From NCBI RefSeq assembly GCF_003044185.1, contig NZ_PYYB01000001.1, forward strand, positions 1-64,000: a stretch of DNA of 64,000 nucleotides, in the 5' to 3' direction. Numbering within the stretch: position 1 is the first letter of the stretch; every line of letters begins with the position of its first letter. The notes below the pieces were generated by a model. That model saw only the letters and a program-made list of their open reading frames with translations, made no database searches and was not told where the DNA came from. Below are positions 26,875-46,858 of this stretch, piece by piece. This DNA is from Paraconexibacter algicola (lineage in GTDB: Bacteria > Actinomycetota > Thermoleophilia > Solirubrobacterales > Solirubrobacteraceae). Position numbers and translations under genes: made by a program.

Positions 26875-28193
26875 CCTCCGCCTCCCGGGCGCTCGATGAT
26901 CGGGTACGGCTTGGCGAGGTACGTGCACGGCGCGGGATAGCCCTCGCGGGTGATCAGCCCGGTGCTGTCCGGCAGGCTGAGCGCCTCGGTCGGGACCGGC
27001 GCCGCGATCTGGAGGCGGAACTGCATCGCCGGGCCGTTCGGGCCGCTGGTGTTGCGCGTGCCCAGGCCGGTCATGGAGCGGAAGACGGCGCCGAAGTTCT
27101 CCAGGTCGCAGCCGTAGGGCCCGAGTTTCCGGACGACGGGGACGATGTCGGCCAGGAGGTCCGTCGCAGGCTTCAGCAGCGGGCTCGCGGCGCCGGTGAC
27201 CCGGAGCACCGACGGCACGACGGGCTTCACCTCGTCGAGCAGGTCGGTGGCCCGGTCCAGCGGGCCCGGCGCCTCCTTCAGCAGCGCGCTGGTGGCGCGC
27301 AGGCCGGCGGGGAGCCGGGGCAGCGTGAGGTTCGCCTGCCGCGAGAGCGACCGCGCGGCGGCCAGCAGCGGTCGACCGGCGCGCAGGCCGGCGTCGCCGG
27401 CGTCCAGCGCGGTGGGGGCGGCACCGAGGGCATCGCGGGTCGCGTCGCGCTCGACGACGAACGGCGCCAGCGCCCGGTCGCCGGCGCCGAACAGATCGGT
27501 GATGGCGACCCGCTCGTCGTCCAGCGGCACCATGCCGGAGCGCAGCGACGGCAGGAGGCCGTCGAGGTCGGCGGTGCGCAGGGTGGTGAAGAGCTTCTTG
27601 GTGGGGACGATCTCGCGGCCGCCGACCCGGAGCAGGTCGTTCACGTTGGCCCCCTGACCGGCGAGGCCGGTTCCCAGCTCGCCGAGCAGCGGGCGCAGCG
27701 CGCCGCGGGTCTCGCGGTCGAACGTGTCCAGCGCGTCGGTCGCGCCGAACGTGAGCGCGCGGTCGTCGCCCTTGATCGGGGCGCCGTCGGCGAGCGCCAC
27801 GTCGCTGCGTCCGGGCACGAGCTCGACGAAGCGCGCTCCGAGCAGGCCGTTGGCGCGGATGCGGATGCCGGTGTCGGCGGCGAGCTTCGTCCCCGGCTCG
27901 AGCTGCAGCCGCAGGCGGTTGCCCCCGTCGGGCGCCAGCTCGATCGAGCGGACCTGCCCGACGCGGACACCGCCGAGGCGCACCGGGTCGTGGTCCAGCA
28001 GGCTGCCGATGCGCGGGACCTCGGCGTTGACGAAGCGGTAGTCGCGGCCGGGGACACCGTTGTAGAACGCGGCGGCGAGGTACGCGAGGCCGGCGAGGAG
28101 GCCGACGACCACGAGGCCTCGGACGATGACCCGCCGCGGGGGCTCGCCGTCGTAGCGCCGGGTCCGACGGGTGCGGGACGTGCGCGCGCTCAT
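26871..28193 (-). CDS. MCE family protein, third of the mce operon
   Basis: The 440-residue protein has an Arg-rich cytoplasmic N-terminus (TSRTRRTRRYDGEPPRR), membrane segment ~25-43 (GLVVVGLLAGLAYLAAAFY) and an MCE domain (~52-135: DPVRLGGVRVGQVRSIEL; LLGARFVELVPG). The helical region runs to ~350 and contains a conserved GPYGCDLENFG segment. ATGA overlaps join it to both neighbours. The basic N-terminus may contact the YrbE/ATPase module, which is inference. Confidence 0.93.
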   Translation of the reverse strand: MSARTSRTRRTRRYDGEPPRRVIVRGLVVVGLLAGLAYLAAAFYNGVPGRDYRFVNAEVPRIGSLLDHDPVRLGGVRVGQVRSIELAPDGGNRLRLQLEPGTKLAADTGIRIRANGLLGARFVELVPGRSDVALADGAPIKGDDRALTFGATDALDTFDRETRGALRPLLGELGTGLAGQGANVNDLLRVGGREIVPTKKLFTTLRTADLDGLLPSLRSGMVPLDDERVAITDLFGAGDRALAPFVVERDATRDALGAAPTALDAGDAGLRAGRPLLAAARSLSRQANLTLPRLPAGLRATSALLKEAPGPLDRATDLLDEVKPVVPSVLRVTGAASPLLKPATDLLADIVPVVRKLGPYGCDLENFGAVFRSMTGLGTRNTSGPNGPAMQFRLQIAAPVPTEALSLPDSTGLITREGYPAPCTYLAKPYPIIERPGGGG

Positions 28194-29614
28194 GGGCCGA
28201 GGAGGAAGTCGAGGAGCTGGCCGGTCGAGCCGTCCTTCTCCGAGCTGAGCGTGAGACCGCCGACGACGTCCTGCAGCGCGTCCGTGATCTCGTCGACCGT
28301 CGGGTTCTTCGGCAGGCCCTCGAGGATCTCGTCGAGGCCCGGGACCTTCGGCAGCCGGACCGGCGGCGCGGGCGCCCTGGGAGCCTCGGGCGCCGGAGTC
28401 GTCGCGGGCGCGGGCCTCTTCGTCGCGCCCTTCCTCGGCGGCTTCTTCTTCGCCGGGGTCTTCGTGAGCCGGTCGACCATCGTGAGCACGAGGTCGGGGC
28501 TGATCGACGCCTCGCCGCGGAAGACGTGGCCGAGCTGGTCGCGCAGCTGGATCGCGCGCGACCAGTTCTCGAGGACCGCGATCACGTTGTCGGCGCTGTT
28601 GTCCAGCGCGGTGGTGACCGGCGGCAGCTCCCGTCCGAGGGTGGAGAGGGTGGAGAGGGTCGGACGGGAGCGCCGCAGGACGGGGGTGGCGCCGTTCGCC
28701 AGGCGGCTGAGGCCGGGGGCGGCGCGGACGGCGGACGCGAGCGCCGGTGTCGCGGCCTTGCGGAAGGTCTCGACCTCCCCGAGCGTCGACGCCAGCGCGG
28801 GGGCGGCGGCGCGGATCTCGCGGGCTGCGGGACCGAGATCGGCGGTGGTCGCCTCGAGGTCGCCGAGGAAGCCCCGGAGCGTGTCCAGCGTGCCGGGGGC
28901 CTTCGCCAGCGCGGCGCGCAGGGCCGCGCGCCGCGCGGCGACCGTCTCGGTCGTCCCGCCGACGGTGTCGACGAGCTTCGTGAGCTCCCGCCGCTCCTTC
29001 GCGGCCTGTGCGACGAACCGGTCGCTGCGCTCGACGAGGTCGGTCATCGTCGCGTCGGTGGTGGCGAGCTCCTGGAGCGCGGGGCCCGCCTGCTCCATGC
29101 CGAGCGGCAGTTCCTTGAGCAGGACGCTGACGTCGACCTTGCGACCGACGACGGCCTCGCCGGCGGCGTTCAGCAGGATCTTCGCCCGGGTCCGCGTGTC
29201 AGCGTCGAACACGCCGAGCACCTGGTCGAGGTCCGTGGGCGTCGTCGCCTGGGACTCCTTCAGGACGTAGCCGTCGGGCGCCGGGTCCTTGGCCGCGTTC
29301 CCCGGGTCGAGCTCGACCCGCTTGAGGCCCAGGAAGTTCGCGGCCACGATCGCGACGCTCGCGTCCTTGCCGATCGGTCCGGCGTCGTCGTCGAGCTCGA
29401 GGTCCAGCAGCACGCGGTCGCGGTCGTCGATGCGGACCTTGACCTTGCCGCGGTCGAGCCCGCCGATCTTCACGGCGGAGCCGTCGTCCAGGCCGGAGGC
29501 GTTGGCGAGCGGGACGGAGACCGTGTAGCGGTCCTCCCCCACGCCCGCCTTCAGCGCGACGACGAGCAGGAGCAGCGCGACCAGCGCGCCCCCGGCGAGG
29601 CGGACCGGGTTCAT
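28190..29614 (-). CDS. MCE family protein, second of the mce operon
   Basis: The 474-residue protein has a membrane segment at ~7-23 (GGALVALLLLVVALKAG), an MCE domain (~30-115: LDDGSAVKIGGLDRGKV; NFLGLKRVELDPG) and a helical tunnel region. Residues ~380-425 are a Pro/Ala/Lys-rich tail (TPAKKKPPRKGATKRPAP) before a final ~50-residue amphipathic part. Such C-terminal tails occur in some actinobacterial Mce proteins. ATG 29614 overlaps the preceding stop (ATGA). Confidence 0.92.
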   Translation of the reverse strand: MNPVRLAGGALVALLLLVVALKAGVGEDRYTVSVPLANASGLDDGSAVKIGGLDRGKVKVRIDDRDRVLLDLELDDDAGPIGKDASVAIVAANFLGLKRVELDPGNAAKDPAPDGYVLKESQATTPTDLDQVLGVFDADTRTRAKILLNAAGEAVVGRKVDVSVLLKELPLGMEQAGPALQELATTDATMTDLVERSDRFVAQAAKERRELTKLVDTVGGTTETVAARRAALRAALAKAPGTLDTLRGFLGDLEATTADLGPAAREIRAAAPALASTLGEVETFRKAATPALASAVRAAPGLSRLANGATPVLRRSRPTLSTLSTLGRELPPVTTALDNSADNVIAVLENWSRAIQLRDQLGHVFRGEASISPDLVLTMVDRLTKTPAKKKPPRKGATKRPAPATTPAPEAPRAPAPPVRLPKVPGLDEILEGLPKNPTVDEITDALQDVVGGLTLSSEKDGSTGQLLDFLLGP

Positions 29615-30987
29615 CGTCCGTCCGCCTTCGGCAGCGGGACGATCGGCATCAGCTTGGGCAGCTCGAAGACCTTCGCCGAGTCGCGGATCTCCGGGTCCTT
29701 GTTCGGGTCGATCGCGTCGGAGCCCGCGCCGCACTCGGGCAGGAACCAGGGCTGGCCGGCGACCGTCCCGGGCGGGCGCGGCAGGCCGTACTCGAGACCG
29801 GAGAAGAGCCGCTTGGCCTGGGCGCTGTTGTAGCCGGAGACGTTGCTGAAGGCGGGCGCGAAGTTCTGGACCTGCGCGCGGATCAGCTTGTCCTTGCCGT
29901 CGGTGCCGGAGAAGAAGTCGCCCCAGTTGGAGAAGAAGGCGTTGGCCTCCGGCGTGTACGGGCGGATGCACTCGAGGTTCTCGACCGCCTGCTTGCCGAT
30001 CGACTCGAGCTGCGGGCTGCGGCCGGTGAGCCGCTCCACCAGCGGGTTGAGGCTCGGCGTCGCCTGCCGGGCGGCGACCAGCGTCTTCGTCGCGTCCGGC
30101 CCGATGTCCCGCACCGTCTGCAGCAGTCCGTCGAGCGGCTGCACCGTGCGGCGTACCGCGGTGACGCCCGGCGCCAGGTCCCGTGTGAGCGCGCGGGCCC
30201 GGACGAGCGTCTCGTCGGCGAGGGCGAGCGTGGTGCGGGCACGGCGCAGGCTGCCGGGCGCGGCGGAGAGCGCGGCCTGCACGTTCTGCGACTCGTCGGC
30301 GATCGCGTCGAACGTGCCGCCGGCGCCTTCGAGCAGGCGGCGGACGTCGGGCTGTGCCGCGTCCACCGCTCCGAGCACGCGGTCGGCCGATCGGACCAGC
30401 GTGCGGACGGCGCGCTGGTCGGAGGCGATGTCCTGGACGACGTGGCGCGCCTGCACGAGCGCGGGTGGCGCGACCTGCAGCGTGCGGCGGAGGCCGACAC
30501 GGCTGGTCTTCAGGGCCGGTCCGCCCTCGCGCAGGAACCGGCGGAGGTCCTGTCGCGCGGCGTCCGGGAAGCGCGCCAGCAGCTCGTCGAACTCGACGGG
30601 CACGGTGAAGTCGCGGGCCGGGAAGGTCCCGCCCTCCTCGACGGCCGTGCCGGACTGCCTGCCGGGCGTGAGCGCGATGTAGCGGTTGCCGAAGTTCGCC
30701 GTGCCGCCCCAGCGCAGCGCCATCTTCGACCCCTTGGGCAGCGGCCACGCCTCGTCGTCGATCTCGAGCTCCAGGCGCGCGTCGCGGCCGCCGTTGGCGG
30801 GCTCGATGGAGACGACGTGGCCGACCTCGCTGCCGCGCTGGCGGATCGCCTGGCCCTCGACGACGTTCGTCGCCTCGCCGACGACCACGCTGAAGCGCGC
30901 GCCCGTCTCGGCGTCGCGGCCGACGAGGACGACGACGATCGCGCAGACGGCGAGCAGGGCGAGCAGCGGGGCGACGACCGGGCGCAC
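29611..30987 (-). CDS. MCE family protein, first of the mce operon
   Basis: The 458-residue protein has a membrane segment at ~5-22, an MCE domain (~30-118: VVEGQAIRQRGSEVGHV; ANFGNRYIALTPG) and a helical region with a C-terminal part containing NLECIRPYTPEANAFF, a segment typical of Mce proteins. GTG 30987 follows the YrbE stop by three bases. As the first MCE gene after the two YrbE permeases it sits in the mceA position of the conserved yrbEAB-mceA-F order. Confidence 0.92.
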   Translation of the reverse strand: MRPVVAPLLALLAVCAIVVVLVGRDAETGARFSVVVGEATNVVEGQAIRQRGSEVGHVVSIEPANGGRDARLELEIDDEAWPLPKGSKMALRWGGTANFGNRYIALTPGRQSGTAVEEGGTFPARDFTVPVEFDELLARFPDAARQDLRRFLREGGPALKTSRVGLRRTLQVAPPALVQARHVVQDIASDQRAVRTLVRSADRVLGAVDAAQPDVRRLLEGAGGTFDAIADESQNVQAALSAAPGSLRRARTTLALADETLVRARALTRDLAPGVTAVRRTVQPLDGLLQTVRDIGPDATKTLVAARQATPSLNPLVERLTGRSPQLESIGKQAVENLECIRPYTPEANAFFSNWGDFFSGTDGKDKLIRAQVQNFAPAFSNVSGYNSAQAKRLFSGLEYGLPRPPGTVAGQPWFLPECGAGSDAIDPNKDPEIRDSAKVFELPKLMPIVPLPKADGR

Positions 30988-32790: not shown

Positions 32791-33999
32791 TCAGACGTCC
32801 ATCCCGAGCGGACCTGCGGAGTCGCCCGCGAGGAACTGCCGGATGAAGGGCGTCTGCGATGCGAAGACCTCGTCGGCGAAGCCGGACTCCAGGACCTTGC
32901 CGCGCCAGACGACCGACACGTGGTCGGCGATCAGCCGGGCCAGCAGGACGTTGTGGGTGACGATGACCATCGTCCCGCCGTGGCGGGCGTGCTGCTCCAC
33001 GAGCAGGTCGCCGAGCAGGGCGGTGCGCACCGGGTCCAGGCCCGAGTCCGGTTCGTCGCAGAGCACGATCCGCGGGTTCATCGCGAGCGCCCGCGCGAGG
33101 CCCGCGCGCTTGCGCATGCCGCCGGAGAGCTCGCCCGGCATGCGCGTGGCGGCGGACAGCAGGCCGACGCTGTCGAGGTGGCCCTCGACGACCTCCCGGA
33201 CCTCGGCGTCGTCGAGGTCGGTGTGCTGGCGCAGCGGGAAGGCGACGTTGTCGTAGACGTTCATGCCGCTGAACAGCGCGCCGTCCTGGAACATCACGCC
33301 AATCTCGCTGCGCAGCCCGAGGATCTCCGCGCGCGACATCCGGCTCAGCGGGCGGCCGCGGATCAGGACGTCACCCGCGTCAGGCCTGAGGAGGCCGATG
33401 ATGTGCTGCAGGAGCACGCTCTTGCCGGTGCCCGACGGCCCGAGCACGACGGAGATCACGCCTTCCGGGATCGTGACGTCGAGGCCCTGCAGGACCTGGT
33501 TGGCGCCGAACGCGCGGTGCAGGTCGCGCGTCTCGATCGCCAGCAGCTCGGGGTCCAGCGCGTGCGGGACGCCGTCTCGCGCGGGCGCGGCCGACGGACG
33601 CTCGGTGCCGTCGGAGCCGGCGACGTTGCGCACCAGGCGCCGGACGATCGGGTCGACCTCGAGGAGCTTGCGGACGGGACCGTCGGCGGTCACCTGCCCG
33701 CGGTGCAGCGCGGCCGGGAGCGCGAGCATGCCGTCCGCGTAGGCGCGGGTGGCCGCGCGGTCCAGGCGCAGCGTGACCTCGCCCGGCTCGTCGAGGCTGA
33801 CCGCGGGAACGCGCCGGTCCAGGAGGAGCGTGACGGTCCGCGTCTGGCCCTCGAGGTGCAGCTCGACGCTGGTCTGCGCGTGGTGGACCTGGGTGGCCAG
33901 GTCCGGCTCGGAGGCGAACGCGTCCCGCAGACGGGCGGCGAGGGACTCGGGCGTCGGGTCCCGGCGGAGCTCGGTCACGGCGTGGGACTGGACGCTCAT
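32791..33999 (-). CDS. MceG/Mkl-type ABC ATPase with N-terminal SCP2-like domain
   Basis: The 402-residue protein is larger than a plain MceG. Residues ~150-400 are an ABC ATPase: Walker A GPSGTGKSVLLQ (~187), signature LSGGMRKR (~285), Walker B IVLCDEPDSGLDP (~305) and switch His in VTHN. The C-terminal FIRQFLAGDSAGPLG is typical of Mkl/MceG. Residues ~20-115 (VTLRLDRAATRAYADGMLAL, GQVTADGPVRKLLEVDPI) look like an SCP2 sterol-carrier domain, which binds hydrophobic ligands; this fusion is inferred from pattern. The start overlaps the LuxR stop (ATGA). It would energise the importer encoded downstream. Confidence 0.9.
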   Translation of the reverse strand: MSVQSHAVTELRRDPTPESLAARLRDAFASEPDLATQVHHAQTSVELHLEGQTRTVTLLLDRRVPAVSLDEPGEVTLRLDRAATRAYADGMLALPAALHRGQVTADGPVRKLLEVDPIVRRLVRNVAGSDGTERPSAAPARDGVPHALDPELLAIETRDLHRAFGANQVLQGLDVTIPEGVISVVLGPSGTGKSVLLQHIIGLLRPDAGDVLIRGRPLSRMSRAEILGLRSEIGVMFQDGALFSGMNVYDNVAFPLRQHTDLDDAEVREVVEGHLDSVGLLSAATRMPGELSGGMRKRAGLARALAMNPRIVLCDEPDSGLDPVRTALLGDLLVEQHARHGGTMVIVTHNVLLARLIADHVSVVWRGKVLESGFADEVFASQTPFIRQFLAGDSAGPLGMDV

Positions 34000-34793
34000 C
34001 GAGCGGCGCCGCCGGCGCCGGGGTCGGACTGCAGGAAGCGGGCGACGGCCTCCGCGCGGTTCTGCGCGCCGAGCTTGCGCAGGATGCGGGCGACGTGCGC
34101 CTTCACCGTCTCGGGCGAGACGTACATCGTCTGGGCGATGTCGCGGTTGGAGCGCCCGGCGGCCAGGCCGCGGATGACCTCCAGCTCGCGGTCGGACAGG
34201 AGGTCGGCGACCGAGGTGCTGCCGGCGGGCAGCGCGTGCAGGAGGGAGAGCGGCGCCGCGTGTCGCTGCGACGGCAGGACGAGGGGCGCACCGTGCAGCT
34301 CCTCGAGCAGCGCGCCCGTCGAGGCGACGAGCTGCTGCAGCTCGGCCGACACGAGCGCGGTGCGCTCCTGCTGCAGGACGCGCTCCAGCGCGAGGGCGGC
34401 GACGGCCGCAAGGTCCGCCAGGCGTGCGTCGTCCGGCGCGATCGTCGAGGTGACGAGCAGCACCGCCAGCTCGGCCCCGCCGACCTCGATCGGCTGCAGC
34501 GTCACCGTCTCCCCCGCCTCGGGCGCGAGGTCCCGCCGCTCCACCGGCTGCGCCAGGAAGCTGCGGCGGAGCCGGTCGCTCGCGGGGTCGGCCAGCGCAC
34601 CCGTGTCCTGCGCGCTCAGCCGGCCGTGACGGACGGTGAGCACGACGGCGCGGTCTCCGGGGCGGTCGAGCGCGAGCGCCGCGACGCGCGCGAACAGGCC
34701 GTCCACGTCCTGGGCACGCCCGAGGATCGCGCACCAGCGCGTGATCTCGGGAGTGCCGTCGGCGACCGGCGGGTCGACGTCGTCGGGGTCCAT
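33996..34793 (-). CDS. LuxR-type transcriptional regulator in the mce locus
   Basis: The C-terminal ~60 residues hold a LuxR/NarL helix-turn-helix (LSDRELEVIRGLAAGRSNRD, then ETVKAHVARILRKLG). The first ~170 residues look like a GAF-type sensor (DVDGLFARVAALALDRPGD, LADLAAVAALALERVLQQER), with no receiver Asp. It is translationally coupled to the ABC ATPase and starts a few bases after the FAD oxidoreductase, so it is probably a local regulator of the mce operon. I chose ATG 34793; a GTG at 34820 is an equally open alternative. The protein would be 265 or 274 residues. Confidence 0.88.
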   Translation of the reverse strand: MDPDDVDPPVADGTPEITRWCAILGRAQDVDGLFARVAALALDRPGDRAVVLTVRHGRLSAQDTGALADPASDRLRRSFLAQPVERRDLAPEAGETVTLQPIEVGGAELAVLLVTSTIAPDDARLADLAAVAALALERVLQQERTALVSAELQQLVASTGALLEELHGAPLVLPSQRHAAPLSLLHALPAGSTSVADLLSDRELEVIRGLAAGRSNRDIAQTMYVSPETVKAHVARILRKLGAQNRAEAVARFLQSDPGAGGAAR

Positions 34794-34829
34794 CGCGAGG
34801 GCTCTGAGGCGGGCCGGCACGGCGTGGCC

Positions 34830-36476
34830 TCAGCGGCTGGTCACGAGCTGGCGGGCCCGGGCGGGCAGGCCGCCGGCGCACTTCGCGGTGGCGAGGAAGG
34901 CGTCCGCGGCGTTCTTGCCGGGGATGCCGCTGATGCCGCCCGTCGGGTGCGTGCCGGCACCCGTGATCCAGAGGCCCGGGACCGGGACGTCGTAGGAGCC
35001 GAAGCCCTGCGCCGGACGCAGCGGGCCGAAGCGCGCCCCCACCGGTTCGACGTGGTAGACGTTGCCGTCCGGCACGTGGAAGCGCTCCTCGAGGTCCGGC
35101 GCGGAGAAGACGCGGCGGCCCATCTCCAGGGAGTCGAGCCCCTCGTAGACCGTCGCGCACTCCGCCAGGACGCGGTCGCCGATCTGGTCGCGGACCGTCT
35201 CCCAGGGCTCGGCCTCCGGGTTGCGGGGCGTGATGCCGGACCAGAGCCAGAACGTGTCCTGCCCGTCGGGCGCCTGCGTCGGGTCGATCGCCGACGGGAT
35301 GATCCCGATGAAGGGGATGACCTCGGGCCAGCGGCGCTGGACGACGCGGTTCCACGCCTCCTTGTGCTCCTCGTAGGTCTGCCAGCTGACGATCGGCTTG
35401 CGGAGATCTAGGCCGTCGCCGCGATGCTGGTCGCGCCACGCCTGGTGGCGGGGCATCGTGAGCTTGCCGGAGACGGCGACGTCAATCTTGAGCGTCGTCG
35501 TCTCGAGGACGTTGGTCGGGATCGCGTTGGCGCGACGCTCCAGGTGGTCGGGCAGCGTGCCCTCGGGGAGCAGCTGCGCGAGCGTGGCCTTGGGGCTGCA
35601 GGAGGCCATGACGTTCGCGGCGCGGAGCTGCTCGCCGCTGTCCAGCTGCACGCCGACGACCGCGCCGCCGTCGACCAGCAGCTCGGTGACGCGGGCGTTC
35701 GTCCGGACCTCGGCGCCGTGGTCCTTCAGGTAGGCGTGGAGCGCGTCGGTCAGGGCGCCGGTGCCGCCGAGGAAGCGGGCGGAGTTCGTGCGGTGGCACA
35801 TGCCGACGTAGATGAGCGCCCAGCCGGTGCCGTCCTGCGTCATCCAGCAGAAGGGCGGCATCGACGCGAGCGCGCCGCGGACGAGCGGGTGGTCGAACCG
35901 CTCCTCGACGATCTCGGCGTGCGAGCTCGTGAAGAAGCTCAGGAGCGGCCAGAGCTCTTTGCGGCGCCGGGCGCCCTTGGGCAGCATGCTGAGCGCCGTC
36001 CTGAAGTCCGGGCGCGTCGGGTGGCCGAGCATGAACGGGATCGCGAGGTCCATCGCGGCGTCGAGGCTGTCGGCGAACTCGCGGTACTTGACCGCGTCCC
36101 GCGGGGAGAAGTGGCGGATCTCCTGCACGGTCTTCGACGCGTCCTGCCAGAACGCGAGCGACGGCCCCTCGGGGTCGAGGTGGACGTGGAACGGGTCGGC
36201 GATGAGCTGCTTGAAGCCGTACTTCGCGAGGTTCAGGTCCTGCTCGATCGACGACGCGCGGAAGAGCGAGGCCTGGATGCCGCCCTCGTTGATGCGGTGC
36301 CCCGGGGCACCGTCGATCACCGGGTTCGTCGAGATCATCCCGCCGACGGTCGGCGATGCCTCGAGCACCGTGACGTCGAGCCCTGCCCGGCGCAGGTACG
36401 CCGCGGCGACCAGCCCGTTGTGGCCGGCGCCGATGACGATGACGTCCCCGGCATCCTGCTTGCTGTTCATGAACAT
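34830..36476 (-). CDS. FAD-dependent NAD(P)-binding oxidoreductase, phytoene desaturase-like
   Basis: The 548-residue protein starts with a Rossmann FAD site (VIVIGAGHNGLVAAAYLRRAG, ~13-33) and a long middle and C-terminal region with PGLWITGAGTHPTGGISGIPGKNAA, the second dinucleotide motif of the CrtI/PYROXD2 group. Members desaturate or oxidise carotenoids and other lipids; the substrate is unknown. ATG 36476 follows GGAGGAGGAG. It heads the operon that continues through the LuxR gene into the ATPase and mce genes. Its promoter carries the shared TTGAAA-type operator described separately, so it is likely induced with the DUF7065-like and membrane-protein genes. Confidence 0.9.
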   Translation of the reverse strand: MFMNSKQDAGDVIVIGAGHNGLVAAAYLRRAGLDVTVLEASPTVGGMISTNPVIDGAPGHRINEGGIQASLFRASSIEQDLNLAKYGFKQLIADPFHVHLDPEGPSLAFWQDASKTVQEIRHFSPRDAVKYREFADSLDAAMDLAIPFMLGHPTRPDFRTALSMLPKGARRRKELWPLLSFFTSSHAEIVEERFDHPLVRGALASMPPFCWMTQDGTGWALIYVGMCHRTNSARFLGGTGALTDALHAYLKDHGAEVRTNARVTELLVDGGAVVGVQLDSGEQLRAANVMASCSPKATLAQLLPEGTLPDHLERRANAIPTNVLETTTLKIDVAVSGKLTMPRHQAWRDQHRGDGLDLRKPIVSWQTYEEHKEAWNRVVQRRWPEVIPFIGIIPSAIDPTQAPDGQDTFWLWSGITPRNPEAEPWETVRDQIGDRVLAECATVYEGLDSLEMGRRVFSAPDLEERFHVPDGNVYHVEPVGARFGPLRPAQGFGSYDVPVPGLWITGAGTHPTGGISGIPGKNAADAFLATAKCAGGLPARARQLVTSR

Positions 36477-36506: not shown

Positions 36507-36536
36507 AGCCTACACAGATTCTGAAAACAATTTCAA
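36507..36536 (-). promoter_or_regulatory. Promoter/operator of the FAD oxidoreductase operon
   Basis: On the minus strand, -35 TTGAAA (36536-36531), an 18-bp spacer and -10 TAGGCT (36512-36507) are seen. The -35 is the left half of the operator TTGAAA-TTG-TTTTCA (36536-36522), an imperfect palindrome. The same layout recurs upstream of 41840 and 42596. Confidence 0.7.
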
Positions 36537-36586
36537 CTCTGTCTGAACGTTCATTCATGGCACGTGTTTTGGCTACGCTCGTCGCG

Positions 36587-37198
36587 GTGGACATGCCCGC
36601 GACACGCACCGACCGCCGCCGCGCCCGCACCCGTCGTCAGCTCGTCGCGGCGGCGCGCGAGCTCATCACCGAACGCGGTGTCGCGGGGCTGCGGATCGCG
36701 GAGCTGACCGACGCCGCCGACGTCGGGCGGGGGAGCTTCTACAACCACTTCGACTCCAAGGAGGACCTCGTCGCCGCGGTCTTCCGGGAGAGCCTCGAGA
36801 CGCTCGCGCACACGATCCTCACCTCGATCCCGGACGACCTCCCGCCGGCGGAACGGGCCGCCATGGCCGACCGGCGGTTCGTGCGCCTGGCCTACGAGGA
36901 CCCGGACTTCGCCCGGCTGCTCGTCCAGCTCCACAACGGCGACGACCTCTTCGCGACGGCGACCCTCCCCTACGCCCGGATGGCCCTCGAACCGGGCATC
37001 GCCAGCGGTGACTTCGACGTGCCCGACGTCGACGTGATGCTCGTCATGCTCGCGTCCAGCTCGATGGGCCTGATCCGCGCGATCCTCGAGGGCCGCGTCC
37101 CGCCGCACGCCGAGCAGGCCCACGCCGAGTCGATCCTGCGGCTCCTGGGCGTGACCGACGACGAGGCCCGGAGGATCAGCCGGCTCCCGCTGGACTGA
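36587..37198 (+). CDS. TetR-family regulator (paralogue of the one at 41914)
   Basis: The protein of ~203 residues has a TetR DNA-binding domain (RRQLVAAARELITERGVAG; recognition part DVGRGSFYNHFDSKEDLV). It is a close paralogue of the regulator at 41914, which has DVALGSFYNYFDTKEDLV and the same YEDPDFA-x-LL-V segment. Divergent from the FAD oxidoreductase across a shared operator. GTG 36587 lies 7 nt after TACGCT (36574-36579), a leaderless signature; ATG 36557 or ATG 36593 are alternatives. It likely represses the shared TTGAAA operators together with its paralogue. Confidence 0.9.
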   Translation: MDMPATRTDRRRARTRRQLVAAARELITERGVAGLRIAELTDAADVGRGSFYNHFDSKEDLVAAVFRESLETLAHTILTSIPDDLPPAERAAMADRRFVRLAYEDPDFARLLVQLHNGDDLFATATLPYARMALEPGIASGDFDVPDVDVMLVMLASSSMGLIRAILEGRVPPHAEQAHAESILRLLGVTDDEARRISRLPLD

Positions 37199-37547
37199 CG
37201 CGGGGCGCCGCCGAGATTTCGTCGGCGTAGGCGATGGATGCAAGCACGGTCGGCTGCGCTTCTGACTTCAACATTTGCCGCAGCAGATCGACGACGCGAT
37301 CGCAGTGCGGACGATCAAAGATCACCCTGTCGTCCCCCGTCTTGCGCGTACCGAGCTGGGCAAGGATGTCGACGCCAAGCTGACGACGAACCGGCTCGGG
37401 ACTCTCACAGAGCGCGACCGCCGCATCGAACGACGGGTCGGTATCGAGGTAGTGGAGGGCCGTGACCTGAGCCCAACGCTCATCGCTGTCCTCTGGCGCA
37501 GCCAGAGCCGCCGAGATGCGCTCATGGATCTCCTCGTCACGGGTCAT
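37176..37547 (-). pseudogene. Truncated HEAT-repeat protein
   Basis: The first ~100 residues (IHERISAALAAPEDSDERWAQ, LCESPEPVRRQLGVDILAQLG, CDRVVDLLRQMLKSEAQPTV) read like the N-terminal HEAT repeats of a common actinobacterial scaffold family. The reading changes after LASIAYADEIS into an unrelated short tail, and the end lies inside the 3' end of the convergent TetR gene (overlap 37176-37198). The family normally continues with more repeats, so the gene looks truncated. ATG 37547 lies 7 nt after TACGAT on the minus strand. A short functional protein cannot be excluded. Confidence 0.5.
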
Positions 37548-37725
37548 CACAGAAATCGTAGATCCATGCCGTGCGACCGTTCAACGCTCAAGCGACGCCA
37601 GACCGGCTACGAGCACCGAGACTGCTCCTACCGCGTGCCTTGCAGCACGTCTCGATTCCGCGAAACTGCGATCCGCGACCTCTCCTCTCGCGTGGGAGCG
37701 CGAGTGGCGGCCGGGCTCGGCGCCC

Positions 37726-38202
37726 CTAGACCACAGGATGGATTCCGGCTCCGCTCTCGTAGAGGTCGCTGCTGATCAGAGTCGGTGGCAGCAGACGATC
37801 GGCGAGTCGTTGCCCGTTGCCCGGTCTGATGAGCAGTCGCCACATTGCGCGACGGATCTCTTTCGGAAGGTCGGTTCGACTTCCAATGGCCACGAGGTGG
37901 CGGTGTGCCGTCCGTCGCTCTGCTTCGTTTGCGACCGGCAGCACGCGCTCGACGGCCAGTAGAACGAACAACGTGGCGTCGTCGCCGGAAGGCGACTCGT
38001 GCTGACGCACCAGGTGCCTAACTCTTGCCCACCGAGCGGATACCGTGGGCTCGGACCCCCTGGAGTTGCAGAGCAACGCCACCTCGGCACTCGGGGAGAG
38101 GCGGGGCTCGGCGACCGGCGGGACTGCGGCGCCGCGCTTCCTCATCGACCTCAACGCACCCTGACCTACGGTGCTTGGCGTACTCGCTTTCCCGTCGTCC
38201 AC
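37726..38202 (-). CDS. Hypothetical protein in atypical patch
   Basis: An open frame of 158 residues with GTG start; no family recognised. It is rich in Arg, with a stretch RHLVRQHESPSGDDATLFVL and a C-terminal KEIRRAMWRLLIRPG, and could be helical. GC content is lower than in flanking genes. It lies in a gene-poor segment between a truncated HEAT gene and the DUF7065-like operon. No ribosome site is clear, and it may be a remnant. Confidence 0.35.
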   Translation of the reverse strand: MDDGKASTPSTVGQGALRSMRKRGAAVPPVAEPRLSPSAEVALLCNSRGSEPTVSARWARVRHLVRQHESPSGDDATLFVLLAVERVLPVANEAERRTAHRHLVAIGSRTDLPKEIRRAMWRLLIRPGNGQRLADRLLPPTLISSDLYESGAGIHPVV

Positions 38203-38658
38203 GACGTGCTCCCTTCATCCGAATCACAGCACAGTCTCACAGAGCCGCGATGACTCTCAGATGTGATGACCGTCGGGTCGCCCAGATCTAGCTGATGACT
38301 CCGCGTAGGCGTCCGCCCAACGCGAGGGCAGCTTCAGCGGTCACCGGATACAGCGTCCACGGCCAGTTCCGCGCGCGATTGGCAGACGGTGCCACGAACG
38401 CGACCTCACTAGTCCTTGCGCGTGGACGCGAGCGCGGGCCTGCAAGCGCGACGCGCTGCCTCCTTCGCGAGTTCCGTACGAAACAGGGCCTGGAGGCCCT
38501 CCTTCGTACGGCGGTCGCGTTGCCGTCGGCCGCCGATTCCGCGCGGGAGCGGCAGTCCGATGCGTCGATCGAGCTCGAGTCTGACCGGTCGGAACTCGTC
38601 TGACCCGACCGTCCACGCTCCTTGGACGGCGACGTTGCAGCACTGCTGCTGCACCTCG
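38203..38658. other. Gene-free stretch with strong hairpin
   Basis: No convincing gene is visible in this 456-bp stretch; the short frames on either strand have no recognisable product. It carries a hairpin at 38474-38511: stem CCGTACGAA paired with TTCGTACGG, and an inner stem AGGGCCT/AGGCCCT with a two-base loop. Base composition is more mixed than in neighbouring coding DNA. The hairpin is about 150 bp past the stop of the minus-strand operon, so it could act as its terminator. Confidence 0.5.
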
Positions 38659-39636
38659 TCAGCCCGCGACTGCCGCCTCGGCGCCGCTGAGACCCTCGGT
38701 CGTGTTCGCCAGCACCGCCGTCGCGACCGGGCCGCTCCCCGCGCGCGGGTTCGTCGACACCTCGAGGTCGCAGAAGCCGCGCGCGCCGTCGATCTCGATC
38801 TCGCAGATCGCGTCGACGCACGCGACGCCGTGGTGCTCGGAGACGGTCGCGCCGTACGGACGGCAGTCGATCTCGACGAGCTGGCCGTCCGGGAGCCAGA
38901 GCTTCGTGGACCCGGAGCGGTAGCTGACGCCGTCCGCCTCCATGCCGACGACCACGTCGACGTCGGTGGCGTGGACGACCTCGCCCTCGCGGACGGCGTA
39001 GCCGAACTGCTTGAGCGAGCCGTCGACGCCGTTCCAGCTGATGAGGCCGAACGACAGTTGCGGCCCGACGGTGCCGGGGACCCAGCGATGGTTCAGCAGC
39101 GTGTCCCAGCGGCGCAGGCCCCAGCTGCGGTCGCGGTGCCCGAGGCCGTCGAGGACGTACTCCCGGCCCCCGAGCACGATCTTCCCCGTGACCCGACCGG
39201 AGCACTCGAAGTGCGACGACGCGAAGTCGTCGACCAGCGTGCCGGCGGTCGGGGGGAAGAAGTCGGTGCGCGGATAGAAGTCGGCGAACCGCAGGTCCAT
39301 CGAGACGTCCTCGTCGTCGGCCTGGAAGTGCAGGTCGCCGTCGAACACGGCGCGGTAGCGGCCGCCGTAGGCGCCGAACCCGTCGTCCCGCAGGTCGGCC
39401 GACTCCAGCGGCGAGGACGCGTTGCGCCGGTACGCCCGGCCGTCCTTGGTGACGAGCCCGAACCACAGCGCGGACACCCCGCCCGCGTGTCCGGGCTCGT
39501 GCCCGATACGCATGTGCCCGCCGATCCCGGACGTCGGACAGTGGAACGTGACGAATGCGCTGTCCTGCCACGACTCGTCGGCCTCGGGAGCCTGCCGGAG
39601 CTCGCCCTCGGGACCGTGCTGCACCGAGCCGCCCAT
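38659..39636 (-). CDS. DUF7064/7065-like (AttH-like) protein
   Basis: The 325-residue protein has beta-rich, lipocalin-like style: GLVTKDGRAYRRNASS, SSHFECSGRVTGKIVLGG and GHRDRSWGLRRW (~175). The RDRSW motif recurs in the 354-residue protein at 40776-41840, so the two are distant paralogues of the same family found in terpene and steroid-degrading actinobacteria. Function is unproven; relatives in the AttH/carotenoid hydratase fold bind hydrophobic ligands. Its ATG overlaps the kinase stop by one base (TGATG), and it is the last gene of the three-gene minus-strand unit. Confidence 0.8.
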   Translation of the reverse strand: MGGSVQHGPEGELRQAPEADESWQDSAFVTFHCPTSGIGGHMRIGHEPGHAGGVSALWFGLVTKDGRAYRRNASSPLESADLRDDGFGAYGGRYRAVFDGDLHFQADDEDVSMDLRFADFYPRTDFFPPTAGTLVDDFASSHFECSGRVTGKIVLGGREYVLDGLGHRDRSWGLRRWDTLLNHRWVPGTVGPQLSFGLISWNGVDGSLKQFGYAVREGEVVHATDVDVVVGMEADGVSYRSGSTKLWLPDGQLVEIDCRPYGATVSEHHGVACVDAICEIEIDGARGFCDLEVSTNPRAGSGPVATAVLANTTEGLSGAEAAVAG

Positions 39637-40748
39637 CAGCGGTTGCCGATGAAGCTCTGCGACTCTCCGCTCGGCGCCTCGAGTCCGAGTAGCTTCGCGA
39701 GCAGCTGGCTGGCCGGGTTGTTGAGCTTCATCGGGGCGTCCGGCGGCAGCAGCCCCGCGCCCACCATGAGGTTGCCGGCACGGTGCATCAGCGACGCGAG
39801 GCGCACCGCGCAGAAGACCTCGAACCAGTGGAGGTCGGGGAGCGAGAAGCCGGTGAGCTCCTCGTACCGCGCGACCGTCTCCTCGCGGGTCGGGAAGCCC
39901 TCGGGCAGCGGCGCGCCGATGCCCTCGGTGTGATGGCGCAGGAGGAAGAGCCACCAGGCGACGTCCAGGGCGGCGGGCGCGACGGCCACCATCTCCCAGT
40001 CGAGCACCGCGGCGACCGACAGGTCGTCGGCGAACATCATGTTGCCGACGCGGGCGTCCCCCCAGTTCAGGACCGTCGGCCCCATGTCGGCCGGACGGTT
40101 GTCCGCCAGCCAGTCGAACCCGGCTTCGACCGTCGGGTTGGCGTCGCCGGCGGCGGCCCACTCGAACGTCTCCCGCCAGAAGGCGAGCTGCCCGTCGATG
40201 CCCGCCTCGCGGTGCGCGGCCAAGGCACCCAGACCGACCGCATCGAGGTCGACCGAGTGGAGCTTGGCCAGCGTCTGGAGAGCGTTCTCGTTCAGCCGCG
40301 CGCGCTCGTCGGCCGACAGCTCCTCGAGCACCCAGCCCGCGGCGGTGAAGGGCGGGTCGTCGCTCGGCACCCGGCCGTCGACGCGCTCCATGACCATGAA
40401 CGGCGCGCCGAGCAGCGACGCGTCGTCCGACCAGAAGAGCATCACCGGCACGGGGACGTCGGTGCCGATCTGCAGGGCGCGCATGACGTCGAACTCGAGG
40501 CCGAAGTCGTAGCGCGGGAAGACGGCCGGGCCGCTCGGCTGGATGCGCGCGACGAGTCGGCGTGAGACCTCCTCCCCGCCCTGCATCCAGGACGCGCTGA
40601 AGAGCACGGTCTCGTTGGACAGGCCGCTGGCCTTGGGGATGTCGATGTCGGTGACGAGGACCTCCTGTGCGCCCGGGACATTGCGGCCGATCGCGATGGC
40701 GAGGCTCTCCGCGGCCTTCGCGGGATCGGTGGTGTTGGACAGTGCCAT
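39636..40748 (-). CDS. Phosphotransferase-family (APH-fold) kinase
   Basis: The 370-residue protein has an aminoglycoside-phosphotransferase fold: ATP-lobe region ASGLSNETVLFSASW (~40), catalytic loop WGDARVGNMMF (~225, Asp base and Asn) and metal motif VLDWEMVAVAPAALDVAWW (~245). The WGDARxGN variant (Trp for His) is typical of the subfamily found next to acyl-CoA dehydrogenases, whose substrates are small hydroxylated metabolites or hydroxyacyl-CoAs. AGGAGAG precedes ATG 40748. It sits between two DUF7064/7065-like genes in one operon, so it likely phosphorylates the same lipid-like substrate. Confidence 0.88.
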   Translation of the reverse strand: MALSNTTDPAKAAESLAIAIGRNVPGAQEVLVTDIDIPKASGLSNETVLFSASWMQGGEEVSRRLVARIQPSGPAVFPRYDFGLEFDVMRALQIGTDVPVPVMLFWSDDASLLGAPFMVMERVDGRVPSDDPPFTAAGWVLEELSADERARLNENALQTLAKLHSVDLDAVGLGALAAHREAGIDGQLAFWRETFEWAAAGDANPTVEAGFDWLADNRPADMGPTVLNWGDARVGNMMFADDLSVAAVLDWEMVAVAPAALDVAWWLFLLRHHTEGIGAPLPEGFPTREETVARYEELTGFSLPDLHWFEVFCAVRLASLMHRAGNLMVGAGLLPPDAPMKLNNPASQLLAKLLGLEAPSGESQSFIGNR

Positions 40749-40775
40749 GGTCTCTCTCCTGCTCTCTCGTACGGG

Positions 40776-41840
40776 TTAGGCCTGCGGCGCGGCGACGCGA
40801 AACCGGTCCTTCATGGCCCGCTGGTAGTCGTCGAACCAGATCTCCTGATAGGTCGCGTGGGCGACCCGTCCGTCCTGCGACTCCCAGCGGAAGACGCTGT
40901 CGTGGAAGGACGCGTTGGGCCACGCGGGGATCGTCGCGGTGGCGATCGCCTCCCCCGTGAACCGGTAGACGTGACCGGTCTCGTCCTCCGCCTCGATCTC
41001 CTGGCGGATCGCCATGAAGATGTCCGGGTCGTACTCCAGGACGTTGCGGCGCACGCGGGTGATCTCGTGGGTCTCGCCGTCGCGGACGACCCACGCGTAG
41101 TGATGGCTCGGCCGGTCGGCGGGCACCTGGTAGACGCCCTCCCAGGCTGGGCCGGTGTCCTGCGCCTCGAAGCTGATCTGGTTGAAGATCAGGTCGGGCC
41201 CGAAGTACATCGGCGACCAGCCGACCGGCGGCACGGGCACCGCGCCCTGGCGCTCGACCCGGATCTGCTTCCACGACCGGTCGCGCGGCGCATGGCAGTC
41301 CACCACGAAGCGCTCGCCCCGCAGGACGAGCTCACCGGTGACGTGCATGACCTGCTCCGAGCCCCCGGGACGCACGTCGCCCTGGCCGTCGAGGCCGTGG
41401 CGGAGCTCCTCCCCCGGCATGACGTGCCCGCGGGCCAGCAGCGGGGTGACCGCGGTCTGCGTGACGTCCAGGGAGGTCGTGCCGTCGTTCGAGGTGTAGG
41501 TGACGCGGGCGACACGGCCCGGCTCGAGGAACTCGATCTGCAGGCCGTTGGCCGTGCGGATGGTGTTCCCGTCGATCTGCGGCCACGGCATCCCGACCTC
41601 GTAGTCGAGGAACTCCATGTCGGTGACGTGGACGTTGTCGGTGCCGCGGAACAGGCAGACGCCCCCGTGCGACAGCGGCACCGCCGGCATGTAGCGGACG
41701 TAGAGGAAGGCGCCGATCTGCGCCTCGGGGATCGAGAAGCCGAAGTAGTGGGTGTGGATCGTGTGGGGATCCCACTGCTCGCCGTCCGCGGGCAGCGGCA
41801 GCAGCAGGTCCGTCTCGGGCGGGTGGACTCCGTGGGCCAT
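40776..41840 (-). CDS. DUF7065/7064-like protein, first of the operon
   Basis: The 354-residue protein, mostly beta, has DPHTIHTHYFGFSIPEAQIG at ~25 and APRDRSWKQIR at ~190. It is a distant paralogue of the last gene of this operon (shared RDRSW, beta pattern). The family is uncharacterised; no signal peptide is present, suggesting a cytoplasmic hydrophobic-ligand-binding or isomerising enzyme. ATG 41840 lies 7 nt after TAGGCT on the minus strand, and the -35 is inside the shared TTGAAA operator. It is divergent from the TetR at 41914. Confidence 0.8.
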   Translation of the reverse strand: MAHGVHPPETDLLLPLPADGEQWDPHTIHTHYFGFSIPEAQIGAFLYVRYMPAVPLSHGGVCLFRGTDNVHVTDMEFLDYEVGMPWPQIDGNTIRTANGLQIEFLEPGRVARVTYTSNDGTTSLDVTQTAVTPLLARGHVMPGEELRHGLDGQGDVRPGGSEQVMHVTGELVLRGERFVVDCHAPRDRSWKQIRVERQGAVPVPPVGWSPMYFGPDLIFNQISFEAQDTGPAWEGVYQVPADRPSHHYAWVVRDGETHEITRVRRNVLEYDPDIFMAIRQEIEAEDETGHVYRFTGEAIATATIPAWPNASFHDSVFRWESQDGRVAHATYQEIWFDDYQRAMKDRFRVAAPQA

Positions 41841-41847
41841 GCGGAAG

Positions 41848-41877
41848 AGCCTAACCAGTTTCTGAAAACTTTTTCAA
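41848..41877 (-). promoter_or_regulatory. Promoter/operator of the DUF7065-kinase operon
   Basis: On the minus strand, -35 TTGAAA (41877-41872), 18-bp spacer, -10 TAGGCT (41853-41848). The operator TTGAAA-AAG-TTTTCA (41877-41863) has the same form as the sites at 36536-36522 and 42559-42573. It sits between the divergent DUF7065-like and TetR genes, so it can serve both. Confidence 0.7.
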
Positions 41878-41913
41878 CTCTTTGCTGCCGCCGCTTCCTG
41901 AAAAGATGCTCAC

Positions 41914-42540
41914 GTGGCGAAGACACCTTCCCGATCCCGCACCTCGCAGGCCGACCGTCGCGAGCGGACGCGCCGGTCGCTGCTCGACGCGGGCCGCCGG
42001 CTGATCGCCGACAAGGGCGTCGCGGGCCTGCGGATCAGCGAGATCACGACGGAGGCCGACGTCGCGCTCGGCTCCTTCTACAACTACTTCGACACCAAGG
42101 AGGACCTCGTCGACGCCGTGGTCGGCGACACGCTGGCGAACGTCGCCACCGCGCTCTCGACGAAGGAGACCGAGGACCAGGACTCCGCGGAGGTCGTCGC
42201 CACCGCGATCCAGCGATTCGTCGCGATCGCCTACGAGGACCCGGACTTCGCGCAGCTCCTCGTCCACCTCAACCACTCGGAGGAGGTCATGCTCGGCTCG
42301 GTCAGCCCGCCCGCGACGGCGGCGGTCGTCGACGGCCTGGAGTCCGGGCGGTTCAAGCTCGAGCCCGAGGCCGTGGACATCGTCGTGACCACGATCCTCG
42401 GTGGCGCGCTCAGCCTGATGCGCGCGATCGTGATGGGCCGGGTCGGCCCCGGGGCCGAGCTCGTCTACGCCGAGCACGCCCTGCGAATGCTCGGCCTCGC
42501 CCCGGCCCGCGCCAGGCAGGTCGTGCAGCGCATCGCCTGA
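41914..42540 (+). CDS. TetR-family regulator (paralogue of the one at 36587)
   Basis: The 208-residue protein has a TetR HTH with RRSLLDAGRRLIADKGVAG and DVALGSFYNYFDTKEDLV. It shares the YEDPDFAQLLV segment and overall length with the regulator at 36587, so the two arose by duplication. GTG 41914 lies 6 nt after AAAGAT (41902-41907). It is flanked by two copies of the TTGAAA operator, upstream in the divergent region and downstream before the membrane-protein gene, which suggests it controls both. Confidence 0.9.
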   Translation: MAKTPSRSRTSQADRRERTRRSLLDAGRRLIADKGVAGLRISEITTEADVALGSFYNYFDTKEDLVDAVVGDTLANVATALSTKETEDQDSAEVVATAIQRFVAIAYEDPDFAQLLVHLNHSEEVMLGSVSPPATAAVVDGLESGRFKLEPEAVDIVVTTILGGALSLMRAIVMGRVGPGAELVYAEHALRMLGLAPARARQVVQRIA

Positions 42541-42558
42541 ACACTCTTTCAAGACTTA

Positions 42559-42588
42559 TTGAAAGAGCTTTCACTTTCGTGGTAGCGT
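42559..42588 (+). promoter_or_regulatory. Promoter/operator of the membrane-protein gene
   Basis: -35 TTGAAA (42559-42564), 18-bp spacer and -10 TAGCGT (42583-42588), then 7 nt to ATG 42596. The operator TTGAAA-GAG-CTTTCA (42559-42573) matches the other two sites. An upstream TTTCA (42547-42551) makes a second, overlapping palindrome with the TGAAA half. Confidence 0.7.
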
Positions 42589-42595
42589 CGCGGCC

Positions 42596-43504
42596 ATGCT
42601 GCCCGACGCCCTCGCCGCGATCCCCGCGCATCCGACCTCCCAGATGCCGCTGACCCCGGAGATCCTGTTCTCGATCTTCCTGTTCATCCCCGTCGCGATC
42701 TTCCTCGCGTACGGCATCAGCCACCTGGTCAAGGGCAAGCGCCCGATCCTGCTGATGTGCCTGCTCGGCGGCAGCATCGCCTGCGTGTGGGAGCCCATCG
42801 TCGACACGCTCGGCCTCTGCTACATCAAGAACGGCGCCGAGACCGCGACGTTCACGCTGATGGACCGGACGATGCCGCTCTTCATCCCCTTCGTCTACAT
42901 CTGGTACGTCGGCGGCATGGCCTACCTGTCGTACCGGCTGATCGCCGCCGGCATCACCACGAAGGGCCTCTTCGCGCTCTACATCGCGGAGGTCTGCGTG
43001 AACATCTTCCTCGAGAGCCCCGGTGTCCTCCTCGGCGCCTACGAGTACTACGGCAGCCAGCCGTTCGACATCTGGGGCCTGCCGTTGTGGTGGCCGATGA
43101 TGAACCCGGTGATGCCGATCCTCGGCGGCGCCCTGATCTACAAGCTCGAGCCGCACCTGAAGGGTTGGCACATCCTGGGGATCATCCCGATCATCCCGAT
43201 GGTCGACGGCATCGCCAACGCCGCGATCGCCTGGCCGGTGTGGCTCACCCTGAACCAGGGCGACATCTCCCTCTGGTGGACGCACGCAGCGACCCTGGTG
43301 ACGCTGTCCTTGGCGCTGTACTCGATCTGGATGCTCTCGCTGCTCGTCGCGCGGCCGGAGTCGCAGGTGCGCAAGCTGACCAAGCGCGAGCTCCTGCGCG
43401 AGGCGATGTCCGGCGACGCCCCTCCGCTCGCCGGGGGCCCTGCGTCCGTGCCGACGACCGCGGGCCCCGCACCCGAGAAGATCCCCGTCGGCGTGCCGGG
43501 GTGA
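42596..43504 (+). CDS. Polytopic membrane protein of unknown function
   Basis: The 302-residue protein has about seven membrane segments (e.g. ILFSIFLFIPVAIFLAYGI at 24, ILLMCLLGGSIACVWEPIV at 51, LFIPFVYIWYVGGMAYLSY at 97, ATLVTLSLALYSIWMLSLL near 245). Conserved-looking polar positions include EPIVD and ESPGVLLGAYEYYG inside the membrane. The C-terminal ~40 residues are a Pro/Ala-rich tail. No family is recognised; the layout suggests an integral lipid or terpene enzyme or transporter. It is transcribed from the third shared operator promoter, so it belongs to the FAD oxidoreductase/DUF7065 regulon. Confidence 0.8.
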   Translation: MLPDALAAIPAHPTSQMPLTPEILFSIFLFIPVAIFLAYGISHLVKGKRPILLMCLLGGSIACVWEPIVDTLGLCYIKNGAETATFTLMDRTMPLFIPFVYIWYVGGMAYLSYRLIAAGITTKGLFALYIAEVCVNIFLESPGVLLGAYEYYGSQPFDIWGLPLWWPMMNPVMPILGGALIYKLEPHLKGWHILGIIPIIPMVDGIANAAIAWPVWLTLNQGDISLWWTHAATLVTLSLALYSIWMLSLLVARPESQVRKLTKRELLREAMSGDAPPLAGGPASVPTTAGPAPEKIPVGVPG

Positions 43505-46808: not shown

Positions 46809-46856
46809 GGAAACGGGTGTTGCCAGATCGGGCGCGTTCCGGCAACATCCGTTTCC
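46809..46856. promoter_or_regulatory. Long inverted-repeat operator (TetR/MpaB-like)
   Basis: Left arm GGAAACGG-G-TGTTGCC (46809-46824) and right arm GGCAACA-T-CCGTTTCC (46841-46856) are 16 bp with one mismatch, separated by 16 bp. The right arm ends two bases before ATG 46859. The spacing fits two TetR dimers or one on each side. Confidence 0.75.
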
Positions 46857-46858
46857 TG

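Follow-up and report, generated by a model that had tools for sequence, protein, structure and literature searches.

A short palindromic operator is shared by three promoters of Paraconexibacter algicola and, as its recurrence beside the same genes suggests, probably marks a conserved TetR regulon that joins an mce importer, an FAD oxidoreductase, a kinase, DUF7064/DUF7065 proteins, and a membrane protein. The operator itself is almost certainly real, judging from comparison within the window (the whole 64,000-nucleotide stretch of DNA analyzed here), the complete genome, and related loci from two actinobacterial classes.

An earlier note on this DNA had placed three promoters with 18-bp spacers in the window and had read TTGAAA as both the -35 element and one half of an operator, TTGAAA-N3-YTTTCA. 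All three promoters were found on the strands and at the positions given there, and the sharing of one site by -35 element and operator holds; the symmetric unit, however, is the 14-bp palindrome TGAAA-N4-TTTCA, with TGAA-N6-TTCA as its core. The first TGAAA of the palindrome supplies five bases of the -35 element, which the leading T merely completes. Two extra core sites (36544-36557 and 42538-42551) each lie 22 bp, center to center, from their neighbor, which gives tandem sites in two of the three control regions. The window contains five core sites, each of them upstream of regulon genes:

36522..36535, unstranded: operator 1a, TGAAAACAATTTCA, overlapping the -35 element of the FAD oxidoreductase-mce promoter
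36544..36557, unstranded: operator 1b, TGAACGTTCATTCA, on the TetR1 side, 22 bp from 1a
41863..41876, unstranded: operator 2, TGAAAACTTTTTCA, exact TGAAA-N4-TTTCA
42538..42551, unstranded: operator 3a, TGAACACTCTTTCA, 22 bp from 3b and overlapping the end of TetR2
42560..42573, unstranded: operator 3b, TGAAAGAGCTTTCA, exact TGAAA-N4-TTTCA
36507..36536, minus strand: promoter of the FAD oxidoreductase-mce operon, TTGAAA-18-TAGGCT
41848..41877, minus strand: promoter of the DUF7064-kinase-DUF7065 operon, TTGAAA-18-TAGGCT, ATG at 41840
42559..42588, plus strand: membrane-protein promoter, TTGAAA-18-TAGCGT, ATG at 42596

The last two promoters stop 7 bases short of the ATG (at 41848 and 42588), and their transcripts are thus probably leaderless. 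An intrinsic-terminator-like match at 42544-42567 is made up of the inner halves of operators 3a and 3b; terminator-like matches were no more frequent than in shuffled sequence.

The genes behind these promoters, and the two regulators beside them, are as follows:

34830..36476, minus strand: FAD oxidoreductase of the phytoene-desaturase/CrtO-like superfamily, below the CrtO cut-off
33996..34820, minus strand: LuxR-type (GerE) regulator within the operon
32791..33999, minus strand: MlaF-type ABC ATPase, extended at the N terminus by about 150 residues
30991..32694, minus strand: two MlaE/YrbE permeases
22830..30987, minus strand: six MlaD/Mce proteins (mceA-F)
40776..41840, minus strand: DUF7064 protein, predicted fold of the 25-phosphosteroid lyase/AttH superfamily
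39636..40748, minus strand: APH-family kinase, homologue of Rv3168 (3ATS) and 9FSG
38659..39624, minus strand: DUF7065+DUF7064 protein, the second lyase-like protein
42596..43504, plus strand: polytopic membrane protein of about seven helices, in no Pfam or NCBIfam family
36587..37198, plus strand: TetR1 (PF00440 + TetR_C_40), start codon uncertain (36557, 36587, or 36593)
41914..42540, plus strand: TetR2 (PF00440 + TetR_C_40), 47% identical to TetR1

The mce importer is complete, with two permeases, six Mce proteins, and an ATPase, and the genes downstream of 36507 overlap or nearly touch, save for one 96-base gap. A complete mce operon and an enzyme operon stand behind a common operator, which bears out the link between lipid importer and enzymes drawn in the earlier note. 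A fold search with the membrane protein gave nothing above the helical-bundle background, and its assignment as AveC-like was rejected at a profile comparison probability of only 0.3%. AveC-like genes (PF17198) adjoin the membrane-protein gene in several loci.

The operator is far more frequent at these promoters than composition predicts. A pattern scan of the 64-kb window allowing up to two mismatches gave 8 strand-matches, where shuffled sequence predicts 0.09. The 4.74-Mb genome contains three copies of the exact palindrome, one at each of the three promoters, against 0.03-0.06 expected per genome from base composition, and the reversed control of TGAAA-N4-TTTCA has zero occurrences in the whole genome. 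Many unrelated genome matches had been named in advance as grounds for abandoning the regulon; the exact site has none. The relaxed core TGAA-N6-TTCA has 11 genome sites against about 3 expected, 5 in the window and 6 outside it. The latter were rejected as regulon members, one lying between an unrelated TetR gene and a luciferase-like gene and the others having no clear target.

The same arrangement is found in other Solirubrobacterales. The exact palindrome also precedes the TetR2 orthologue in each of two relatives (60% and 55% identity). One of the two, the 4.4-Mb single-contig genome of another genus (G014), contains the exact palindrome three times, always within 2.8 kb of the TetR2 orthologue, and two of the three sites are separated by 22 bp, the spacing also seen in the window. 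In a genome found via the membrane protein (G216), the same promoter precedes the membrane-protein gene. Across the window genome, the two relatives with TetR2 orthologues, and G216, TTGAAA-18-TAnnnT is present at 7 of 7 enzyme-side or membrane-side promoters. Sites in two further genomes (G048 and G018) have no window genes nearby and were taken as chance.

Searching with the DUF7064 protein yielded 25 loci from Mycobacterium, Mycobacteroides, Nocardioides, Pseudonocardia, Actinomycetospora, and others, in which genes for TetR, the membrane protein, DUF7064, the kinase, and the FAD oxidoreductase, often with yrbE/mce, cluster in varied order. A count of core sites in 595 kb of DNA from 27 loci, spanning two actinobacterial classes, gave 62 in all, and 57 of these fall inside the 300 bp preceding a TetR, membrane-protein, or DUF7064 start. 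Such regions make up 3.3% of the DNA, and 26 of the 27 loci carry a site there. Put through the same test, none of the other 255 palindromic tetramers reaches more than 7 loci, and since the 27 loci are interrelated, this contrast is a better measure than a binomial p-value. The recurrence of the operator in Solirubrobacterales, Pseudonocardia, Nocardioides, and Mycobacterium agrees with the single regulon that had been claimed. That the sites instead reflect chance -35 similarity together with duplication of paralogous promoters, with no regulatory meaning, is extremely improbable. TetR1 and TetR2 are paralogous, and their upstream regions may therefore share ancestry; however, the operator is kept across two classes in differing gene orders, the reversed-control genome scan and the scan of related genomes count against this explanation, and the 27-locus count contradicts it.

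In Pseudonocardia spinosispora, one operator is followed by the membrane-protein, DUF7064, FAD oxidoreductase, APH kinase, yrbE, and mce genes in a single run. Two mycobacterial loci (L074 and L076) have an operator ahead of yrbEA. In most Mycobacterium loci, the FAD oxidoreductase gene is not immediately downstream of an operator, and mycobacterial tandem sites are spaced at 18 bp. The upstream site is absent from two loci, a small number, that have a DUF7064 gene and no detected TetR (L066 and L077). In gene orientation, 22 of the 26 palindromes that follow a T, and so provide a TTGAA -35 element, are accompanied by TAnnnT at a spacing of 17-18 bp, against 3 of the 64 others at 16-18 bp.

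TetR1 and TetR2 both contain TetR_N and TetR_C_40 domains above the curated cut-off, with one TetR_N in each (208 and about 204 residues). Both fall inside the operator-associated TetR clade, in which the recognition helix is almost invariant as ALGSFYNYF, with GRGSFYNHF in TetR1. Given this membership and the nearly fixed helix, binding by the adjacent TetR is the natural reading, and the clade very probably represents the cognate regulator of the predicted operators. The suggestion that the adjacent TetRs are the likely regulators is thus strengthened, as both belong to the clade that co-occurs with the site. A second TetR clade (8 rows), found beside a different FAD oxidoreductase, was set aside, the operator not being its consistent companion. 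With TetR starts as annotated here, the palindrome lies 6-61 bases away, which makes autoregulation likely.

Recognition of the sites by another regulator, either the LuxR-type protein of the mce operon or a sigma factor with its own promoter type, is very unlikely. The -35 element does form part of the site, and the LuxR gene is kept in four Solirubrobacterales loci. However, the Mycobacterium, Nocardioides, and Pseudonocardia loci gave no LuxR homologue although they retain the palindrome next to TetR; the length of the palindrome is of the usual TetR-dimer type; and several palindromes have no -10 element at all. The conserved LuxR gene could provide a second layer of control.

TetR-family control of mce lipid importers is known from the KstR/Mce4 and Mce3R regulons. 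Mce3R combines two TetR domains in about 400 residues, unlike the single-domain window TetRs of about 205, and TetR2 scores 34 bits against a cut-off of 280 with the KstR model. The nearest solved TetR structure to TetR2 is RolR of Corynebacterium glutamicum (3AQS/3AQT, E 3e-26), which controls resorcinol catabolism (PMC3086911); its helix motif is similar to that of TetR2. The closest tested precedent is Rv3167c of M. tuberculosis: in EMSA/ITC it binds a palindrome in the stretch separating its own gene from Rv3168-Rv3169, and both of these genes are strongly upregulated in the Rv3167c deletion mutant (PMC5340868). The likeness is one of layout, a TetR gene facing away from genes for an APH kinase and an Rv3169-type protein with a palindrome in between, and extends to homology between the Rv3168 kinase and the window kinase (E 1e-50). 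Two differences remain: no mce operon is described for the Rv3167c unit (PMC5340868), whereas the window has one, and the window DUF7064/7065 proteins, unlike Rv3169, fall far under the Rv3169 family cut-off (NF053593; 30 bits for both DUF7064 proteins, cut-off 150). The earlier note took the system for the best candidate for an undescribed one. For its parts that word is too strong, as palindrome-based TetR control of genes for an APH kinase and an Rv3169-type protein is published (PMC5340868) and the enzymes have recognizable relatives.

Repression relieved by a ligand is the likely mode of control. Repressors of the TetR1/TetR2 type, with TetR_C_40 ligand domains, would bind the TGAA-N6-TTCA palindromes that hold the -35 elements of the three promoters, and the bound dimer would block RNA polymerase. 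A ligand, probably the imported lipid or its metabolite, would free the repressor. This would jointly induce the FAD oxidoreductase and mce importer, the DUF7064-kinase-DUF7065 operon, the membrane protein, and probably the TetR genes.

The enzymes offer a view of what may follow import. The DUF7064 structure was predicted from a 23-sequence alignment (pLDDT 85), and the predicted fold matches the dual-lipocalin structure 9FZN of 25-phosphosteroid lyase (25-PSL), a fold common to AttH and others. Foldseek ranks 25-PSL best (E 9e-12), with kievitone hydratase as the next family (2.7e-8), while in the VIA comparison AttH (2ICH; Z 24.7) ties with 25-PSL (Z 24.1). Hydratases and Diels-Alderases also share the fold. 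Given the tie and this diversity, lyase activity is not fixed by the fold: the fold class of the DUF7064 model is clear, its activity is not. The DUF7064 profile has no sequence match to 25-PSL, and the DUF7065 profile, compared with all PDB sequences, reaches 25-PSL at a marginal E of 0.56 with RDRSWG aligned. PDB sequence matches of the DUF7065 protein (E 0.3 and above) were at chance level and were disregarded. The kinase matches 9FSG (E 7e-52), which may be 25-hydroxysteroid kinase (25-HSK), Rv3168 (3ATS/3ATT), and, at E 5e-17, ACAD11 and its relatives.

A kinase and a lyase of Sterolibacterium denitrificans dehydrate a tertiary alcohol at the expense of ATP (PMC8449060, PMC11061730). The window proteins resemble this 25-HSK/25-PSL pair in the proposed logic of phosphotransferase plus lyase, in the DUF7064 predicted fold being nearest 9FZN, and in the RDRSWG stretch of the marginal DUF7065 alignment; lyase sequence identity to 25-PSL is very low. 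S. denitrificans is an anaerobic betaproteobacterium, whereas the window host is an actinobacterium. Its kinase gene has no candidate lyase gene nearby (PMC8449060), and the passages covered describe no mce or TetR link, unlike the situation in the window.

Since the best fold match of DUF7064 is 25-PSL and the kinase is homologous to Rv3168, dehydration of an isoprenoid-type alcohol is proposed. The APH kinase would phosphorylate an imported isoprenoid-like alcohol, and the DUF7064/7065 proteins would eliminate phosphate to give an alkene, so that the alcohol is dehydrated at the cost of ATP in the manner of the 25-HSK/25-PSL pair. The FAD enzyme would then oxidize the product. This kinase-lyase chemistry, drawn from a predicted fold and by analogy, is plausible at slightly under an even chance. 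It is somewhat less probable that the same TetR regulon serves other chemistry, with the kinase acting on an acyl-CoA or other hydroxyl as in ACAD11 and the DUF7064 proteins, as members of the AttH/kievitone-hydratase fold, serving as hydratases, cyclases, or binding proteins. The fold common to 2ICH and kievitone hydratase, and the ACAD11 matches, are in keeping with this reading; on the other hand, Foldseek puts 25-PSL well ahead, the kinase is much closer to 9FSG and Rv3168 than to ACAD11, and the kinase and DUF7064 genes adjoin in most loci.

Sterols as the cargo, handled as in Mce4/KstR regulons, are unlikely. The mce operon gives weak Mce4_CUP1 matches, and the side chain of steroids is where 25-PSL and 25-HSK act (PMC8449060). 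However, the KstD and KstR models find nothing above cut-off in four locus-carrying genomes (G000, G014, G216, and G006), which makes catabolism of sterol as a full carbon source unlikely in these organisms, and the low KstR score of TetR2 points the same way.

Taken as a whole, the dehydration proposal tentatively outlines a previously undescribed, TetR-controlled actinobacterial pathway, extending from Solirubrobacterales to Mycobacterium, in which an mce-imported isoprenoid alcohol may be dehydrated by a kinase and DUF7064/DUF7065 phospho-lyases. No paper naming DUF7064 or DUF7065 was found among the open-licence literature, and phosphate elimination would be the first functional hypothesis for both, their mycobacterial relatives included. 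To our knowledge, the cargo of most mce importers is not known. A conserved operator that, in two classes, couples a particular mce type with a defined set of enzymes may provide a route to the cargo of the importer, by way of the ligand that frees the TetR and the substrate of the kinase.

At the end of the regulator gene TetR2, the two tandem operators form a 9-bp inverted repeat with their inner halves (42544-42567), which could have an additional role as a weak terminator. In the mce operon, the ATPase (32791-33999, minus strand) carries approximately 150 additional N-terminal residues, which have no Pfam match.

Neighbouring genes in the window and the compared loci include:

46817-48034, plus strand, mpaB/rubber-oxygenase catalytic-domain protein (PF09995)
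L091 12130-13155, AveC-like membrane protein (PF17198)
L081 5887-6894, AveC-like membrane protein (PF17198)
L025 13170-14765, minus strand, PEP-utiliser-domain protein, putatively driven by one operator in G014, a genome of another genus

The mpaB gene is adjoined by a P450 gene (48799-50148) and additional TetR genes, and no operator copy is present there. At many mycobacterial and Actinomycetospora loci, AveC-like proteins adjoin the FAD oxidoreductase or membrane protein. Further homologues of the operator-linked PEP-utiliser-domain protein occur within L025 itself, and others lie close to several mycobacterial loci.

Elsewhere in the source genome, the palindrome TGAACGATCGTTCA (L103; G000:C1:1597036) is flanked by an unrelated TetR gene and a luciferase-like gene, and is adjoined by a weak DUF7065 protein. 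L103 is perhaps a second, separate regulon built to the same design as that of the window.
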